DNA of 64,000 nucleotides from an uncultured Bacteroides sp. (GTDB lineage Bacteria > Bacteroidota > Bacteroidia > Bacteroidales > Bacteroidaceae): the NCBI GenBank assembly GCA_902388495.1, contig CABMPP010000015.1, positions 1-64,000 on the forward strand. The letters run 5' to 3'. The notes below the pieces were generated by a model. It did no database searches. It saw only the letters and a program-made list of their open reading frames with translations, and was not told the DNA's origin. Of the stretch, positions 2,931 through 59,324 are shown piece after piece. The translations under genes were made by a program, and so were the position numbers. How positions within the stretch are numbered: the stretch's first letter is position 1; the number at the start of each line of letters is the position of its first letter.

Positions 2931-5030
2931 TTACTCCTTGGTTCCCTGCAGGATTCCCGTATCATTGTCCATATTCTGAATGCTCTTTCGGGCCCCCTTG
3001 TAGCTCCGGCCGAAGTTGAGGTTGAAACTGGCTTTGACGACGACGAGATTCGACATGTTGTTGCTGTGTATATCGGACTTCACCGGATTCAGCGCCGACC
3101 AGTTCTCATTTTTGGAGCGGTAGGTTTTCACAAAGGGATTGTATACTCCCGCCATGATGGACCATGCCGGTTGTTTGTAGCCCGCCATGAGCGCATGCAT
3201 CAGTTCTCCCTTCATCAGTTGTTCGCCATATACAAGCCGGTTGGGTGGGGCGATGGTGGTAAAGTTCATCATCCAATTTCCGAACGAGGCATCCAGGTCG
3301 ATGCGCACTTCTTTCAGCGTATAGGTGTGCAGGTAGTTGTTTCCGGTGCTGATGTAGCGGTTTATGCCGGGTGTGACGGCGAGGCTGAGGTGGTCTTTCC
3401 AAGGCTTTATCTTGAAGGTGACTTCTGCTGCCAGCTGCCGGAAAGACTTCTGGTTCTCATAAGTATGCACAAATACTCCTTGTTCGTAGAGCACACTCTC
3501 CATGATAGGGCTCTTTTCGTATGAGTAGCGTACCAGGGCGTCTATGCTGCAAATGCCTGAGGAGTATACTGCATTGAAGTCCTGGATGGTGCTATGGAAT
3601 GACTTCAGATTAGGATTCCCTCTGCGTATCTGCAGGTTGTCAATGCCCTGCTCTATGTCGTTGAGGTAGGCAATGGAAGGAACGTTGTTCTTCAGATTGA
3701 TGTGGTAGCGGAAGTGCAACTCATCCGTCGGGTTGTAGGATAACAGGAAGGAGGGCTGAAGGGCGTACTTCTCACTGCGGTTATCTTCCTGGCTGTAATA
3801 GAAACGGCTGAGTGTGAGGTTTGCCATATAGCTCCAGTTTTGTATCTTGCCTCGATATTCGGCATACGCGTAGCTTTCGGCTTGCCTCATGAGGATGTCT
3901 TTCTGGTTGCCGCCCCGATATTGATTGTCGGTGTAAGCCTGCATATGCTTGAGTCCGCCGGATAATGTGCCATATTCCATTTCCTTTTCATAAATACCTT
4001 CTGCTATCAGAGAGTATTTCTTACCGGATACATCGGAGTGGAGTTCGGCATTGGCTGCATTTTCAGCTTCTTCGTGGTAGGTGCGGGTGCTGCTGCTGTT
4101 GATATAGGTGCCCACCAGGTTGAAGATGAGTTGCTGGTTGTGTTTCAGGCTTTGCTGGTAGTACAGGTCGAGAGCCGGCAGGTGGTTTCGCTCGCGGGTA
4201 TGGTCGTAGATGGACAGGGGAATGTCGGAGTCGGAAGTATAGAGTTTGCTTTTCCGGTCCTCGTAACCGGCAGGATTGTCTTGCAGGGTATATCGGAGTT
4301 GGGCGTTGAAAAGATATTTTCCTTTATCCTGCAGGCTGTAAGTCAGATTGGAGGTCAGCAGTTTCTTGTTGAACAATGTAGGTTCGCCGGTTTCCAGCTG
4401 GTGCAGTTGCTTGTCGGGGAAGTGGAACCATTCGTCGTATTCGCGCGTCCAGTCTCCCTTGCGCTGTAAGTAGTGCACGTTTGCAGATATTTCGGACTTC
4501 CCGTAGTTGTATCTGCCGGAGAACATATCATCGATGGAAGTACGGTCGCTTCCGATGCCGTGGAGTGCTTCTCCGTTCAGGCTGAGGCCTGAGTTGCGGA
4601 CTCTGGTGATGTAATCAATCACGGCGGCAGCACCTCCATAGCGCGCTCCGGGGCTGTCGTGGTATTCTATGCGGAGAACATCTTCTGGGTTGAGAGCGGC
4701 AATCTCTGCATAAGTGACCTGGATGCCGTTGATCCTTAGTTGTACTTCTCCATTGCCGGAGACGGTCACTTCGCCGGATATGACGTCGACCATGATGCGG
4801 GGCAGTTGCAGCTTATTTAGCAATTCCAGACCGCTCGAAGAGGTTTTCAACTGGCTCCGGGTGGGGAGGACGACTTTGTGGTCGCCTTTCTCGATGACGG
4901 AGCGGGCTTTTACGGTTACTTCGTCCAACTCGATCGCCATGACGCCTGTAGAATCTTTGGCAATTAATTGCGCACGAGAGGGGATAACCATACAGAACAG
5001 TATGGTCATAAATGATACGATGGTTTTCAT
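2931..5030 (-). CDS. Outer-membrane beta-barrel protein, TonB-dependent-receptor-like
   Basis: This 699-residue protein begins with a signal peptide (MKTIVSFMTILFCMVIPSRA), then a stretch typical of TonB-dependent receptors (AIELDEVTVKA) and a plug-like region (residues about 35-140, including LRINGIQVTYAEIAALNPED and SPGARYGGAAAVIDYIT). The remaining 550 residues alternate polar and aromatic residues as in a large beta barrel. It resembles the Bacteroidetes barrel families that lack a classical carboxypeptidase-like N-terminal domain. The substrate is unknown and there is no SusD partner. It lies downstream of an ECF-type sigma factor on the same strand, separated by an unusual tandem-repeat region that may form its promoter or leader. 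Family call is from sequence style, not a search. Confidence 0.8.
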   Translation of the reverse strand: MKTIVSFMTILFCMVIPSRAQLIAKDSTGVMAIELDEVTVKARSVIEKGDHKVVLPTRSQLKTSSSGLELLNKLQLPRIMVDVISGEVTVSGNGEVQLRINGIQVTYAEIAALNPEDVLRIEYHDSPGARYGGAAAVIDYITRVRNSGLSLNGEALHGIGSDRTSIDDMFSGRYNYGKSEISANVHYLQRKGDWTREYDEWFHFPDKQLHQLETGEPTLFNKKLLTSNLTYSLQDKGKYLFNAQLRYTLQDNPAGYEDRKSKLYTSDSDIPLSIYDHTRERNHLPALDLYYQQSLKHNQQLIFNLVGTYINSSSTRTYHEEAENAANAELHSDVSGKKYSLIAEGIYEKEMEYGTLSGGLKHMQAYTDNQYRGGNQKDILMRQAESYAYAEYRGKIQNWSYMANLTLSRFYYSQEDNRSEKYALQPSFLLSYNPTDELHFRYHINLKNNVPSIAYLNDIEQGIDNLQIRRGNPNLKSFHSTIQDFNAVYSSGICSIDALVRYSYEKSPIMESVLYEQGVFVHTYENQKSFRQLAAEVTFKIKPWKDHLSLAVTPGINRYISTGNNYLHTYTLKEVRIDLDASFGNWMMNFTTIAPPNRLVYGEQLMKGELMHALMAGYKQPAWSIMAGVYNPFVKTYRSKNENWSALNPVKSDIHSNNMSNLVVVKASFNLNFGRSYKGARKSIQNMDNDTGILQGTKE

Positions 5031-5098
5031 AAATGTTTATTGTAGGGGGATTGCTGCCTGATGTGCCAGGCAAAGGTTTGAATAATGAATTAGTTGGT

Positions 5099-5461
5099 AA
5101 TGCGAATCAGTAGCCGGATTACTTATTGCCTGCATACATCGAATCAGCCCGAGATATGGCCTGCGGGGTGTCCGAAAATGCCGTATTTGAGCAAAAATAT
5201 GGCTTTTGGGGTGCCCGAGGTGCCGCATTTGAGCAAAAATCCGACTTTCAGGGTGTCCGAAAATGCCGTATTTGAGCAAAAATATGGCTTTCGGGGTGTC
5301 CGAGGTGCCGCATTTGAGCGAAAATCCGACTTTCGGGGTGTCCGAAGGTGCCGCATTTGAGCAAAAATCCGACTTTTGGGGTGTCCGAAGGTGCTGCCGC
5401 ACTAAAAGTTCCTTTCATTTCCGGCAGGAACAGGTGCTAAATCCAACTCCTGATTCGTATT
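5099..5461. repeat. Inverted-end element enclosing a tandem array
   Basis: The 431-bp gap between the barrel-protein start and the sigma-factor stop contains no convincing gene. It is bounded on the left by AATGCGAATCAGTAG (5099-5113) and on the right by its near inverse, ending CTCCTGATTCGTATT at 5461, which touches the sigma-factor stop codon. Between them is a 42/43-bp tandem array. The same ends bound a different segment at 59019-59310. Confidence 0.6.
5165..5400. repeat. Alternating 42/43-bp tandem array
   Basis: Unit starts (GGGGTGTCCG or a variant) fall at 5165, 5208, 5250, 5293, 5335 and 5378, so spacing alternates 43, 42, 43, 42, 43. Two unit types alternate at first: one with TATTTGAGCAAAAATATGG, one with CATTTGAGCAAAAATCCGAC. 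Because the paired period of 85 is not a multiple of three, reading frames through the array are not maintained, arguing against coding. On the minus strand the first unit type contains TATTTTTG, which fits the TAnnTTTG promoter box in the direction of the barrel-protein gene. Confidence 0.85.
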
Positions 5462-6030
5462 TAGTAGTTAAGGAGGTCGTTGTACAGCCCTTTCAGCCGT
5501 TTTCTGAGGTGGAGGACTGCGTAATGTTTCCGCGATAACAAGGAGTTGACAGGAACTCCGGTGGTCTGTGAAAGTTCTTTTGCCGGTATGCCCTCCATTT
5601 CCATGAGCTCGAATGCTTCCCGCTGTTCGGGTGGTAGTTCCGAGAGTGCAACTTCCAACTCTTGCCAGACGAGCGAGCGCATGTACTCCGTTTCGGGAGA
5701 GGGGGCGGACTCACCGAACAGTACTTCCGAAAAGTCTTCCAGTACGTTGTCGTCTTTATCGTAGCTCGGTGAGGGTAACTCTTCCTCTTGCATTTTTTTG
5801 CTTTTGTTGATGATCGTGTTACGCGTCACACGATACAACCAGGCAGTCACTTGCTCGATGGGGTTGAAGGTTGTTTCGATGGTTTTCACCAACTGATAAA
5901 AGACATCTTGCAGAATATCTTCGGCATCTTCCTTGCTCGAAACCCGCTTCCGGATAAATGCCTTGAGGCGGGGCTGATGCTCGGCTATCAGTTCTTCCAG
6001 GTTGCTGTCTTTTCCGGGTTGATTATTCAT
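5461..6030 (-). CDS. ECF-type sigma-70 family RNA polymerase sigma factor
   Basis: The 189-residue protein has sigma region 2 (EDILQDVFYQLVKTIET, residues about 37-55, then AWLYRVTRNTIINKSKK) and a region 4 helix-turn-helix (LPPEQREAFELMEMEGIPAKELSQ). It would direct RNA polymerase to a dedicated promoter set. The start MNNQPGKDS was chosen because it overlaps the end of the upstream membrane-protein gene by 8 bp; the frame remains open for another 111 codons upstream, but that part is a shadow of the neighbouring gene. No classical FecR-type anti-sigma gene is adjacent, so the coupled membrane protein is the obvious candidate regulator (inference). The next gene downstream is the barrel protein. 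Confidence 0.88.
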   Translation of the reverse strand: MNNQPGKDSNLEELIAEHQPRLKAFIRKRVSSKEDAEDILQDVFYQLVKTIETTFNPIEQVTAWLYRVTRNTIINKSKKMQEEELPSPSYDKDDNVLEDFSEVLFGESAPSPETEYMRSLVWQELEVALSELPPEQREAFELMEMEGIPAKELSQTTGVPVNSLLSRKHYAVLHLRKRLKGLYNDLLNY

Positions 6031-17209: not shown

Positions 17210-17283
17210 GCCTCTTTAGCTCAGTTGGCCAGAGCACGTGATTTGTAATCTCGGGGTCGTTGGTTCGAATCCGACAAGAGGCT
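17210..17283 (+). tRNA. tRNA-Thr(TGT)
   Basis: A 74-nt cloverleaf: acceptor GCCTCTT/AAGAGGC, D-arm GCTC..GAGC, anticodon loop TTTGTAA giving TGT, and T-arm GTTGG-TTCGAAT-CCGAC. The anticodon stem CGTGA/TCTCG has a T-T mismatch at its middle pair. CCA is not encoded. Confidence 0.97.
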
Positions 17284-17367
17284 CGAAGAAAAAAGAAGAA
17301 GATTGTTCAAGGTAAGTTCACTTTGCAACAGTCGGTAAGGAAAAAAGAGTTCTTTATATTAATGCAT

Positions 17368-17450
17368 GGGCAAATACCAGAGTGGCCAAATGGGGCAGAC
17401 TGTAAATCTGCTGGCTTACGCCTTCGGTGGTTCGAATCCATCTTTGCCCA
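17368..17450 (+). tRNA. tRNA-Tyr(GTA)
   Basis: An 83-nt class II tRNA: acceptor GGGCAAA/TTTGCCC, anticodon loop CTGTAAA giving GTA, a long variable arm (GCTGGCTTACGCC), and T-arm with GGTTCGAATCC. CCA is not encoded. Confidence 0.97.
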
Positions 17451-17467
17451 CAACTCTTATTCTCCTT

Positions 17468-17539
<72 letters not shown>

Positions 17540-17589
17540 CATAAAGATGTAAATGCTGATTATTAATCAAATAAATAACAAGTAAAGCT

Positions 17590-18774
17590 ATGGCTAAAGA
17601 GAAATTTGAACGTACCAAACCGCACGTAAACATTGGTACAATCGGTCACGTAGACCACGGTAAGACAACGTTGACAGCTGCTATCACTACAGTGTTGGCA
17701 AAAAAAGGTCTTTCAGAATTGCGTTCTTTCGATTCTATCGACAACGCTCCTGAAGAAAAAGAAAGAGGTATTACTATCAATACTTCACACGTTGAGTACG
17801 AAACAGCTAACCGTCACTACGCACACGTTGACTGTCCGGGACACGCCGACTACGTAAAGAACATGGTAACTGGTGCTGCTCAGATGGACGGTGCTATCAT
17901 CGTAGTTGCTGCAACTGATGGTCCGATGCCTCAGACTCGCGAACACATCCTGTTGGCTCGTCAGGTAAACGTACCGAGACTGGTTGTATTTATGAACAAG
18001 TGCGACATGGTAGACGATCCTGAAATGTTGGAACTCGTTGAAATGGAAATGCGTGAGTTGCTTTCAGCTTACGAATTCGATGGCGACAACACTCCTTTCA
18101 TCCAGGGTTCTGCTCTTGGTGCATTGAATGGCGTTGAAAAGTGGGAAGAAAAAGTTCTGGAACTGATGGATGCAGTTGATAACTGGATTCCGCTGCCTCC
18201 GCGTGACGTTGATAAACCGTTCTTGATGCCGGTTGAAGACGTATTCTCAATCACAGGTCGTGGTACTGTAGCTACTGGTCGTATCGAAGCTGGTATTATC
18301 CATGTAGGTGATGAAGTTGAAATCCTTGGTTTGGGTGAAGATAAGAAGTCAGTTGTAACTGGCGTTGAAATGTTCCGTAAACTGTTGGATCAAGGTGAAG
18401 CTGGTGACAACGTAGGTCTGTTGCTCCGTGGTATCGACAAGAACGAAATCAAACGTGGTATGGTTCTTTGTAAGCCGGGTCAGATTAAGCCTCACTCTAA
18501 ATTCAAAGCTTCTATCTATGTTTTGAAGAAAGAAGAAGGTGGTCGTCACACTCCGTTCCACAATAAATATCGTCCTCAGTTCTATCTGCGTACTATGGAC
18601 TGTACAGGTGAAATCACTCTTCCGGAAGGAACTGAAATGGTAATGCCTGGTGATAACGTAGAAATCAACGTAGAACTGATCTATCCGGTAGCTTTGAACG
18701 TAGGTTTGCGTTTCGCTATCCGCGAAGGTGGTCGTACAGTAGGTTCTGGTCAGATTACTGAAATTCTTGACTAA
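17590..18774 (+). CDS. tuf: Translation elongation factor Tu
   Basis: The 394-residue GTPase delivers aminoacyl-tRNA to the ribosomal A site. Seen motifs: G1 GHVDHGKT (residues 19-26), G2 region [14 protein letters not shown]3 DCPGHADY, G4 NKCD and the GSALGAL segment; domains 2 and 3 complete it. Its place after three tRNAs and before tRNA-Trp-secE, rather than after fusA, is notable compared with E. coli. The low-rare-codon, GGT/GCT-rich usage fits very high expression. Confidence 0.99.
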
Positions 18775-18790
18775 TAACCATTAATATACT

Positions 18791-18822
18791 AATCAGTTCC
18801 TGGTGAATGCTGGGAACTGATT
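18791..18822 (+). terminator. Hairpin after tuf
   Basis: AATCAGTTCC (18791-18800) and its exact reverse complement (18813-18822) form a 10-bp stem with a 12-nt loop. No T-run follows, so it is either a weak terminator or a processing signal between tuf and tRNA-Trp, which starts 8 nt later. Confidence 0.55.
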
Positions 18823-18830
18823 ATGTTCAC

Positions 18831-18903
18831 ACGGGAGTAGCTCAGTTGGTAGAGCACCGGTCTCCAAAACCGGGTGTCGGGAGTTCGAGCCTCTCCTCCC
18901 GTG
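18831..18903 (+). tRNA. tRNA-Trp(CCA)
   Basis: A 73-nt cloverleaf: acceptor ACGGGAG/CTCCCGT, anticodon arm CCGGT-CTCCAAA-ACCGG giving CCA, and T-arm GGGAG-TTCGAGC-CTCTC (G·T pairs included). It lies 14 nt before the secE ATG, as in many bacteria where tRNA-Trp precedes secE. Confidence 0.97.
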
Positions 18904-24900: not shown

Positions 24901-25767
24901 AGTAACTGGACGAAGGATGAACACACGAATGGTCTGATCCGTGCTTTGGTGATGAACTTCATCAAGAAATACAAGGAACTTGATGCCGAGTTGAAGCGCA
25001 AGAAATTTGCGATCACGATCGGTGACGAGTTGCCCGCCGGAATCATCCAGATGGCTAAGGTTTATATCGCCAAGAAGCGTAAGATCGGTGTTGGTGATAA
25101 GATGGCCGGTCGTCACGGTAACAAGGGTATTGTTTCCCGCGTTGTACGCCAGGAAGACATGCCGTTCCTTGCCGATGGTACTCCGGTAGATATCGTATTG
25201 AATCCGCTGGGTGTGCCTTCTCGTATGAACATCGGTCAGATATTCGAGGCTGTTCTGGGGCGTGCCGGGAAGAAGTTGGGCGTGAAGTTTGCGACTCCTA
25301 TCTTCGACGGTGCATCGCTGGATGACCTGAACGAATGGACAGACAAGGCAGGACTGCCGCGTTATGGCAAAACAACGCTTTATGATGGTGGTACAGGTGA
25401 CGCATTCGAGCAACAAGCTACGGTGGGTGTGACATACATGTTGAAACTCGGTCACATGGTTGAAGATAAGATGCACGCACGTTCCATCGGTCCGTACTCA
25501 CTTATTACACAGCAGCCGTTGGGTGGTAAGGCTCAGTTCGGTGGTCAGCGTTTCGGAGAAATGGAAGTTTGGGCACTCGAAGCATTCGGTGCCGCACACA
25601 TCCTGCAGGAAATCCTGACAATCAAGTCTGATGACGTGGTTGGACGTTCCAAGGCTTATGAAGCAATTGTGAAGGGTGAACCGATGCCTGCTCCGGGTAT
25701 TCCTGAATCACTGAATGTATTGCTGCACGAGTTGAGAGGTTTGGGCTTGAGCATCAATCTTGAATAA
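21955..25767 (+). CDS. rpoB: DNA-directed RNA polymerase subunit beta
   Basis: The 1270-residue subunit forms half of the polymerase active-site cleft. Seen: the rifampicin-pocket segment with [19 protein letters not shown] sequence (about residues 468-500, ending in [16 protein letters not shown]), the active-site [12 protein letters not shown] segment, and the C-terminal [18 protein letters not shown]. At the residues equivalent to the main Rif-resistance positions the sequence looks wild type. rpoC follows after 109 bp that contain a hairpin and a short tandem repeat. Confidence 0.99.
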
Positions 25768-25779
25768 TGGATAATGGAT

Positions 25780-25816
25780 AATTGAGAATGGACAATGTGT
25801 TGTCTCATTCTCAATT
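25780..25816 (+). other. Hairpin between rpoB and rpoC
   Basis: AATTGAGAATG/CATTCTCAATT and GACAA/TTGTC stack into a stem of about 16 bp with one bulged T and a TGTG loop. No T-run follows. It could be an RNA-processing or stability signal, or a remnant of a repeat; function is unknown. Confidence 0.65.
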
Positions 25817-25833
25817 TGTCAGTCTGTTTTCTA

Positions 25834-25866
25834 ATTATCAATTATCAATTGTCAATTATCAATTAT
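25834..25866. repeat. 7-bp tandem repeat upstream of rpoC
   Basis: ATTATCA is repeated 4.7 times with one variant unit (ATTGTCA), ending 10 nt before the rpoC ATG. The copy number could vary by slippage. Confidence 0.75.
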
Positions 25867-46693: not shown

Positions 46694-46718
46694 GATTGTA
46701 AAATTTCTCTCTACAATC
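46694..46718 (+). other. Small hairpin upstream of rpsD
   Basis: GATTGTA and TACAATC form a 7-bp stem with an 11-nt loop in the otherwise gene-free 116-bp rpsK-rpsD gap. It might be an S4 regulatory site or an attenuator; evidence is weak. Confidence 0.4.
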
Positions 46719-46769
46719 GCGGCTGCAACAAATTGAGTTCATGAATAAACAATTAAATATTTAAAAGAA

Positions 46770-53391: not shown

Positions 53392-53406
53392 TGTTGTATG
53401 CAGCAA

Positions 53407-53561
53407 GTTGCAGAGTTACCGCAAACAAGTTGCAGAGCTGCTGCATATAAGTTGCAGAGACACTGCAAACGAGTTGCAGAGCTGCTGCACATTAATTTGC
53501 AGCGGCTCTGTAGCTTATATGCAGCGTCACTGCAAGATGTATGCAGTAGCTTTGCAGTATG
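53407..53561. repeat. 22-bp tandem palindromic array
   Basis: The 325-bp gap before the convergent lipoprotein gene holds seven units of about 22 bp, starting at 53407, 53429, 53451, 53473, 53496, 53518 and 53540 (one step of 23). Units follow the pattern GTTGCAG-N5-CTGCA-N5, each an imperfect palindrome TGCAG/CTGCA, degenerating towards the right. I see no gene in it. Confidence 0.85.
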
Positions 53562-54405: not shown

Positions 54406-54490
54406 TTTTAGACAGAAGAACAAAAGAACATATTCATGATATGCTATAGCTTATATTTTCTAATTTGTTCTTTTGTTCTTCTGTCTAAAA
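54406..54490. repeat. 25-bp perfect inverted repeat upstream of the NigD-like gene
   Basis: The left arm (54406-54430, containing AGACAGAAGAACAAAAGAAC) is the exact reverse complement of the right arm (54466-54490); the loop is 35 nt. It lies in the 411-bp gene-free region between the divergent NigD-like and hutU genes. In RNA it would be a very stable hairpin; as DNA it could be a remnant of a mobile element's ends. Confidence 0.9.
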
Positions 54491-54510: not shown

Positions 54511-54556
54511 TCATAACCTGTCAAAACGGAGTCAATCTCAACTCCTGATTCGCATT
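54511..54556. repeat. Dispersed repeat end, copy 1
   Basis: This 46-bp stretch (ending CTCCTGATTCGCATT) matches 59265-59310 at 45 of 46 positions and carries the same terminal sequence as the element at 5099-5461. No opposite end is seen nearby. Confidence 0.85.
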
Positions 54557-54601: not shown

Positions 54602-54782
54602 CGTATTTTTGTGATTGTCCGTAGCAACATAGGGCCTAATTTTCATGGCTTCCTCCCTCTCTTTGACTAAAAGATAAATAACTGCCTCTACCTATTGCGA
54701 ATATCGGGATTTATTTTTATATTGCGGCAGATATCAGCCGGTAATAACTGACAATTTGTAACCTTACTATATCCTAATTATT

Positions 54783-58982: not shown

Positions 58983-59018
58983 TATAGTAAATAAGACTTT
59001 GATACATAATATTTAACC

Positions 59019-59310
59019 ATGCGAATCAGTAGTTGAAACTGATTCATAACGATGATAGAAATGAATGAAATGATAAACATGAGTATCTCAAACTCTCCCG
59101 CCTGAAAGGGGGAGTACCCCGTAGGGGGGAGGGGGTCTTACATAAGCAGAGAGTAACTTTGCAATACAGAGAGACTCTGCAATACATAAGTCCCTGCGGA
59201 TGTAAGACCCCTCCGCCCTACGGGCACCTCCCCTTTCAGGCGGAGGAGTTGGAGATACTCTTGCTCATATCCTGTCAAAACGGAGTCAATCTCAACTCCT
59301 GATTCGCATT
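59019..59310. repeat. Inverted-end element with giant hairpin inside the hut operon
   Basis: The gap between hutI and the cyclodeaminase gene contains no gene. It is bounded by ATGCGAATCAGTAGTTG on the left and CAACTCCTGATTCGCAT on the right, the same ends as the element at 5099-5461. Inside are arms 59081-59142 and 59201-59260 that pair over about 60 bp with a few mismatches, built around CGCCTGAAAGGGG and CCCCTTTCAGGCG. The loop holds two copies of TGCAATACA. Confidence 0.85.
59265..59310. repeat. Dispersed repeat end, copy 2
   Basis: 45 of 46 bp match 54511-54556 (one A/T difference). It ends 14 bp before the cyclodeaminase ATG, so it forms that gene's ribosome-binding context. Confidence 0.85.
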
Positions 59311-59324
59311 AATACTTAAACATC

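Follow-up and report, generated by a model that had tools for sequence, protein, structure and literature searches.

Three intergenic loci in the 64,000-nucleotide stretch of Bacteroides DNA analysed here, referred to below as the window, are very probably old non-autonomous MITEs, two of them almost complete and the third represented by one end, on which an IS982-related transposase would have acted in trans. The three copies of this element carry a common terminal inverted repeat, ATGCGAATCAGNAGTTG, which is the end of an insertion sequence (IS). Elements 1 and 3 comprise 361 and 291 bp, and element 2 is the single end (Table 1). The gene names used for the window (sigma factor, hut genes) are readings of the translations.

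Table 1. Coordinates of the three elements and of adjoining features in the window
Feature	Position	Strand	Remarks
Element 1, miniature element	5100-5460		361 bp; inverted ends; spacer without element in six related species
Neighbours of element 1			both - strand: ECF-type sigma factor gene (end at 5461) and downstream gene (start at 5030)
Element 1, left terminal inverted repeat	5100-5116	+	2 mismatches to ATGCGAATCAGNAGTTG
Element 1, interior	5164-5394		tandem array, 42/43-bp units, 85-bp higher order
Element 1, right terminal inverted repeat	5444-5460	-	1 mismatch to ATGCGAATCAGNAGTTG
Element 1, right 5-bp target copy TTAGT (probable)	5461-5465		read against empty sites L188-L193
Palindrome beside the end of element 2	54406-54490		29-bp arms; itself a dispersed Bacteroides repeat
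Element 2, single surviving right end	54511-54555	-	45/46 identical to right end of element 3
Left target copy, element 3	59014-59018		decayed to TAACC; compared with empty site L132
Element 3, miniature element	59019-59309		291 bp; inverted ends without mismatch; empty site
Position of element 3			inside hut operon; hutI-like gene ends 58982, cyclodeaminase-like gene starts 59325
Element 3, left terminal inverted repeat	59019-59035	+	
Element 3, interior	59073-59268		giant hairpin whose 47-bp outer arms are 81% complementary
Element 3, right terminal inverted repeat	59293-59309	-	
Right target copy, element 3	59310-59314		TAATA; compared with empty site L132
ATGCGAATCAGNAG core, site 1	5100	+	
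ATGCGAATCAGNAG core, site 2	5447-5460	-	
ATGCGAATCAGNAG core, site 3	54542-54555	-	
ATGCGAATCAGNAG core, site 4	59019	+	
ATGCGAATCAGNAG core, site 5	59296-59309	-	

The 14-bp core of the end, ATGCGAATCAGNAG, allowing one mismatch, occurs at five sites of the window against 0.12 expected and none of 100 shuffles reached five, a count that rules out a chance likeness of the ends. The 12-bp core at two mismatches, taken alone, is found seven times in the window against 7.6 expected, which is not above chance. All five core sites lie where an initial annotation, made from the letters of the window, had placed two inverted end pairs (5099-5461 and 59019-59310) and a third right end, and the match of 45 of 46 bp it had reported between 54511-54556 and 59265-59310 has been recovered; the outermost 29 bp of the right ends of elements 2 and 3 are identical, which is no chance match. 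The outer edge had been set one base too far out, as AATGCG. The elements start at ATGCG because the base before it is part of the target, and their corrected bounds are 5100-5460 and 59019-59309.

The same ends are widespread outside the window. In 157 Bacteroides genomes the end (up to one mismatch) has been identified 361 times, in 68 genomes, against 13 occurrences of a reversed control pattern. Over all the loci fetched up to that point, neighbouring ends (up to two mismatches) lie less than 700 bp apart in 54 cases, of which 51 are inverted, three direct and none everted; single or randomly oriented ends had been named in the initial annotation as evidence against a miniature element. 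A scan with one genome per species revealed at least 120 stretches with the exact 17-mer. Most of them are from Bacteroidota and the rest from Acidobacteriota and other groups, and a few look like chance matches inside genes. In some Acidobacteriota draft genomes (L018, L029, L057, L061, L089) the 17-mer lies no more than about 75 bp from the end of a contig, where a high-copy IS that interrupts assembly would be expected. Three contigs of a viral collection (L121, L122, L124) have the 17-mer near a sequence like the 3' end of a tRNA (GGGTTCGAATCCC or a close variant), which could be an attachment site or a coincidence.

Ends were paired when one of them had at most one mismatch, both together at most five, and the pair spanned 46-1399 bp, leaving out any pair that came within 10 bp of the border of its locus. 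The resulting 79 distinct elements, of which 43 come from the window or from Bacteroides genome loci, are not all independent as some are related copies. An exact 5-bp repeat stands beside 37 of the 79, where swapping of flanks between elements gives an expectation of 2.9, and exact repeats of 4 bp and 6 bp number three (1.1 expected) and zero in the same set. The outer boundary and the length of the duplication are therefore both fixed, and the search of flanks for short direct duplications proposed in the initial annotation has a positive answer. The duplicated bases are A or T in 169 of 185 positions. Exact duplication is absent in the other 42 elements, both window elements included, and 18 of these 42 retain four of the five bases. 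The size is 640 bp or less in 61 of the 79. Three elements of 70 bp each have an exact duplication, and a near-perfect palindrome of 54 bp is flanked by AGGTA on both sides; these very small forms may be deletion products.

Copies within single genomes indicate that some elements have moved together with their interior. A B. nordii genome encodes two 367-bp copies, 95.6% identical, in 60-bp flanks that are unrelated (53 and 54%), and one Saprospiraceae genome has three 240-bp copies of 93.8-97.9% identity with flanks at 57-65%. A 466-bp element (L255 and L369) found in two genomes is 97.4% identical, has 60-bp flanks 98-100% identical and sits within an inverted repeat, CCACAGAG; it represents one ancestral insertion into another repeat. 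A preference for insertion into hairpin loops, prompted by this case, has been rejected as a rule, since one of 79 flanks exceeded the 99th percentile of the control.

Empty sites are available for both of the nearly whole elements, so that comparison of occupied and empty orthologous sites, the second check laid down in the initial annotation, also came out, between species, in favour of the miniature element that it had proposed. For element 3 the hut spacer of a related genome (L132) is empty at base resolution and reads ATATTTAATACTTAAA; in the window ATATTTAACC precedes element 3 and TAATACTTAAA follows it. The alignment of ATATT-TAATA-CTTAAA in L132 with ATATT-TAACC-[element 3]-TAATA-CTTAAA in the window indicates that TAATA is the target duplicated on insertion, the left copy of which later became TAACC. 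This comparison covered 32 related loci, of which 30 have the complete spacer; ends with up to three mismatches were found in none of the 32, bar one place in L145 that lies outside the spacer.

The sigma-factor spacer is short and without the element in six related genomes (L188-L193). Where the sigma factor gene has its stop codon, four of them read TTAGTAATTTAG and two TTAATAGTTCAG, and no ends occur anywhere in the fetched loci. The TTAGT that abuts the right end of element 1 includes this stop codon. A second TTAGT is at 5090-5094, 5 bp outside the left end, from which it is separated by TGGTA, so that the duplication is imperfect. The remark in the initial annotation that no target-site duplication is obvious thus holds for element 1, where the match abuts the right end only, and has to be amended for element 3, where the empty site reveals a decayed 5-bp duplication.

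The single end upstream of hutU, element 2, has no left partner as far as the gene start at about 54372. Relatives with both ends have been identified (L317 and the more degenerate L315), and as they have its right half in common, the most plausible view of element 2 is that of a copy whose left end has been lost. The palindrome next to it (ACAGAAGAACAAAAGAACA...) recurs in five Bacteroides genomes (G154, G024, G155, G050, G079) and is probably a separate repeat family. One Bacteroides-type promoter motif was found on the - strand beginning at 54627, just outside the end of element 2, and none inside elements 1 and 3. No Rfam family is assigned to the window elements at gathering threshold. 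A minisatellite with 22/44-bp units (AAGTTGCAGAG...CTGCAAA) occupies 53404-53502, and in two related genomes (L290, L297) the region upstream of hutU has TGCAA-rich repeats that resemble it.

Longer elements with the same ends encode a transposase. In the one-genome-per-species scan, end pairs 990-1082 bp apart were present among much shorter pairs in the matches listed. One such long pair (L035) encloses a gene for a 302-aa protein that is assigned to the IS982 transposase family NF033520 of NCBIfam at 5e-30, with a score of 104.8 bits that lies under the curated cut-off of 130 bits. It has no match in Pfam, and many of its listed homologues carry PF01609 or PF13612. Same-ended copies of about 1.06-1.08 kb, encoding a DDE transposase related to IS982, occur in a range of Bacteroides genomes. 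Elements of 980-1090 bp make up 15 of the 79 pairs, seven with exact duplication. Among 18 loci examined for ends (L258-L275), nine have ends on both sides, 1073-1085 bp apart with at most three mismatches per end (for example L259, L263 and L268). Elements 1 and 3 are too short to encode the 302-aa protein, and no relative of it is found in the window by tblastn (best E 1.5).

In a large protein collection 2412 proteins match the L035 transposase at 1e-10 or better. The residues D120, D204 and E261 are invariant across seven aligned sequences, including a distant relative and an ISLll1-type transposase of 27% identity, and are likely to form the catalytic triad. Relatives on plasmids of Aureibacter (44% identity) and Salinibacter (39%) have kept ATGCG-type ends: both are found in Aureibacter, with three mismatches each and an annotated gene that overruns the right end by 6 bp, and one in Salinibacter, with one mismatch.

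Members of the IS982 family, IS195 and IS1187 included, are described as about 1 kb long with a DDE transposase of about 290-300 aa and direct repeats of 2-10 bp; 57 of the 69 members analysed there have ends beginning with AC and five with CC (PMC7335449). The parent IS of the window elements agrees with this account in its length of about 1 kb, its homologous DDE transposase of 302 aa with an NCBIfam match and its direct repeats, and departs from it in having a score below the curated cut-off, one fixed duplication length of 5 bp and ends that begin with AT (PMC7335449). As its ends begin with AT and not 5'-AC, we refer to the parent as IS982-related and not as a regular IS982 member.

Matches to the transposase are encoded in 43 of the 157 Bacteroides genomes, some of them weak, and in some genomes the weak matches may be other IS982 elements. 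On the assumption that both searches drew the same genomes, the end-rich genomes G036, G143 and G114 belong to the 43, and G002, G003, G053, G100 and G153 are outside them, possibly as orphan populations; many of the copies may therefore be fossils or have been moved by a different transposase.

The window elements and their relatives are short, have inverted repeats and the ends of an autonomous element, encode no transposase of their own and are present in several copies per genome; the target duplication usual for a MITE is found in the family, and in the window it is backed by the empty site of element 3, neither copy having an exact pair. We propose that the full IS of about 1.08 kb supplies the DDE transposase, for which the 17-bp ends, perhaps the whole of 52 bp, would serve as recognition sites. 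The shared ends and the duplications suggest that the enzyme acts in trans on DNA between inverted ends, which would be inserted into an A+T-rich target with duplication of 5 bp. Many of the copies are probably relics.

Two other explanations are set aside by the parent IS and the duplications. The ends could be an immobile conserved boundary or regulatory module placed around intergenic repeats, such as a terminator or a protein-binding site, and the intergenic position of the window elements, the strong folding of most interiors and the aged look of the window copies are in keeping with it. The exact duplications at 37 of 79 elements, the empty orthologous sites and the occurrence of the same ends on transposase-bearing elements make it very improbable. 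The initial annotation had offered such a module as its alternative, which is superfluous because the ends are those of an autonomous IS and the elements duplicate a 5-bp target. Short intergenic palindromes with hairpins also recall REP sequences moved by RAYT proteins. Those systems depend on a tyrosine (Y1, HUH) transposase and are not known to duplicate their target, so the 5-bp duplication and the DDE transposase bearing the same ends leave this origin scarcely any likelihood.

The interiors differ greatly among elements with these ends. Clustering of the 79 interiors placed 26, full IS copies included, in the cluster that contains the IS, 37 in ten other clusters of 2 to 11 members and 16 as singletons, one of which is element 1, in agreement with the initial annotation that the interiors are unrelated. 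The tandem array of element 1 and the giant hairpin of element 3 are likewise as it had described them. The open reading frames called mechanically in element 1 follow its array, for which a search of the 157 Bacteroides genomes yielded only 30 bp of similarity, located in the element's right end.

A conserved module underlies many of the ends. The alignment of Bacteroides ends, restricted to that genus, reveals conservation to about position 52 with a TTCAT...ATGA(A/G)NNAAAT pattern, beyond which the sequences are unrelated; some ends do not have it, the left end of element 1 and several B. nordii ends among them. The motif is present in 19 of 44 ends, the mean after shuffling being 0.67, a test that is descriptive only as the motif was chosen after viewing the ends, and in which 44 of 46 ends were counted because two window elements shared keys.

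It could be argued that the small elements are mere remnants of the IS left by internal deletion and form no separate miniature family. The 26 interiors in the IS cluster, with small members such as L253 (99 bp) and L269 (426 bp), are what such deletions would leave. The other 53 have no match to that cluster at E 1e-4 (the shortest interior, of L074, being too short to compare), and the module of about 52 bp common to many Bacteroides miniature elements is, by eye, unlike the subterminal sequence of the IS. This explanation is hence unlikely for the family at large, and a miniature family mobilised in trans is preferred.

Most of the interiors fold strongly. For 46 elements of 150-620 bp, trimmed by 45 bp at each end and cleared by hand of seven IS-derived elements (L008, L062, L082, L258, L269, L271, L274), 30 of the interiors have a z-score below -3, compared with 7 among 88 flanks of equal length (Mann-Whitney p 4e-14), the flanks being probably in large part coding DNA. 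Element 3 folds at -154.8 kcal/mol with a z-score of -14.8 (-14.2 for its trimmed interior), and element 1 weakly (z -2.2 for the interior). As the interiors are far more structured than their surroundings, the elements may act on transcripts when situated in operons.

In the elements that share the module the middle would be free to change, and it appears to have been filled repeatedly by unrelated repeats, mostly hairpin-forming, or by a minisatellite. Exchange or turnover of interiors may thus have taken place. A stronger form of this proposal, in which the pair of ends of about 52 bp is a reusable shell of Bacteroidota that takes up, swaps and spreads unrelated hairpin repeats, is a possibility, though less likely than not. 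It agrees with the similar distance at which conservation stops in many ends, unrelated cargo following, with the near-empty shells of 70 bp that have exact duplications at three sites, along with the 54-bp palindrome, and with the recurrent cargo motifs that accompany the ends in several genomes. Cargo-like repeats are also encountered by themselves: the hairpin arms of element 3 recur in other Bacteroides genomes both with and without these ends.

The counts on this point vary with the motif and with the route by which loci were fetched. An end stands within 350 bp in 13 of 16 CACAGAG clusters, 7 of 7 CGCGGAT clusters, 5 of 9 clusters of the giant-hairpin motif and 1 of 4 palindrome clusters, the last being the window's own, counts that are biased upward because many of the loci were fetched for their ends. 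Where loci were mostly fetched by their cargo, a query with the giant-hairpin arms gave 24 clusters, of which 2 have an end no more than 300 bp away, and the palindrome as query has an end beside none of five rows, two of which are one place. Hairpins without ends may also be decayed copies. One of them (L319) keeps the inner end module and has no terminal repeat, so that decay explains a part of the end-less cargo. Neither the loop targeting considered above nor a duplication of the shell core lends the shell proposal support; long elements made of two direct 70-bp shell copies around cargo are unsupported, as inverted similarity exceeds direct similarity.

Should the shell reading be true, strong RNA hairpins would be distributed by it between genes and inside operons, here an operon for histidine use. 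Under the preferred explanation of MITEs with an IS982-related parent, a class of repeats that is widespread between the genes of gut Bacteroides and their relatives acquires a name and a mechanism. Its members can be located by a simple rule, namely inverted pairs of ATGCGAATCAGNAGTTG flanked by duplications of 5 bp. How one set of ends came to have many unrelated interiors is a question that can be tested through closely related strains. ISPg3 of P. gingivalis, of importance for the comparison below, is presumably the same as IS195.

MITEs with near-identical end repeats close to those of a resident IS and otherwise unrelated sequence have been described in P. gingivalis as BrickBuilt and MITEPgRS/MITE464; their interiors contain arrays of 23- and 41-nt tandem units, and BrickBuilt is reported as always intergenic (PMC4596501). 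The ends of this group are of GAGACC type and filed as IS5-like, it is known in that account from P. gingivalis and P. gulae, and its target duplications are irregular, being found in three of four copies with both ends (PMC4596501). The window family resembles it in phylum, in common ends with differing interiors and in the tandem array of element 1, and differs from the group as described there in its ends (ATGCGAATCAG), its 5-bp duplication and its far wider range (PMC4596501). MITE239 and MITE700 of the same species match ISPg3, filed under IS5, in their ends, which are ACGT-type unlike the ATGCG of the window family, and in that description they seem to be without mini- or microsatellites (PMC4596501). 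IS195 is listed as a member of IS982 (PMC7335449).

MITECca01 of Cardinium, of about 240 bp, has ends very similar to ISCca4 of the IS982 family and so is likewise a MITE of Bacteroidota with IS982-type parent ends (PMC9769881). It is described from one Cardinium genome in few forms, unlike the many unrelated interiors found here (PMC9769881). For Amoebophilus an IS982 element is named, and the portion of the account available mentions no MITEs (PMC3196728). Given the precedents in P. gingivalis and Cardinium, MITEs of this kind are already known. New here are the end sequence, a parent group that is IS982-like, a duplication fixed at 5 bp and the wide range of structured interiors carried by a single pair of ends. 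Literature searches with the end sequence, with subscription papers and ISfinder outside their scope, returned among the matches listed no title on Bacteroides or transposons, as did searches with an 11-bp form of the end, and no description of these ends was found among the listed matches on MITEs of Bacteroides or Bacteroidetes.

The window also has a group of four tRNA genes at 17210-18903, two short 7-bp arrays (ATAATGG and AATTATC) on either side of a short stretch at 25764-25866, and an S4-Bacteroidia ribosomal leader at 46694-46725.
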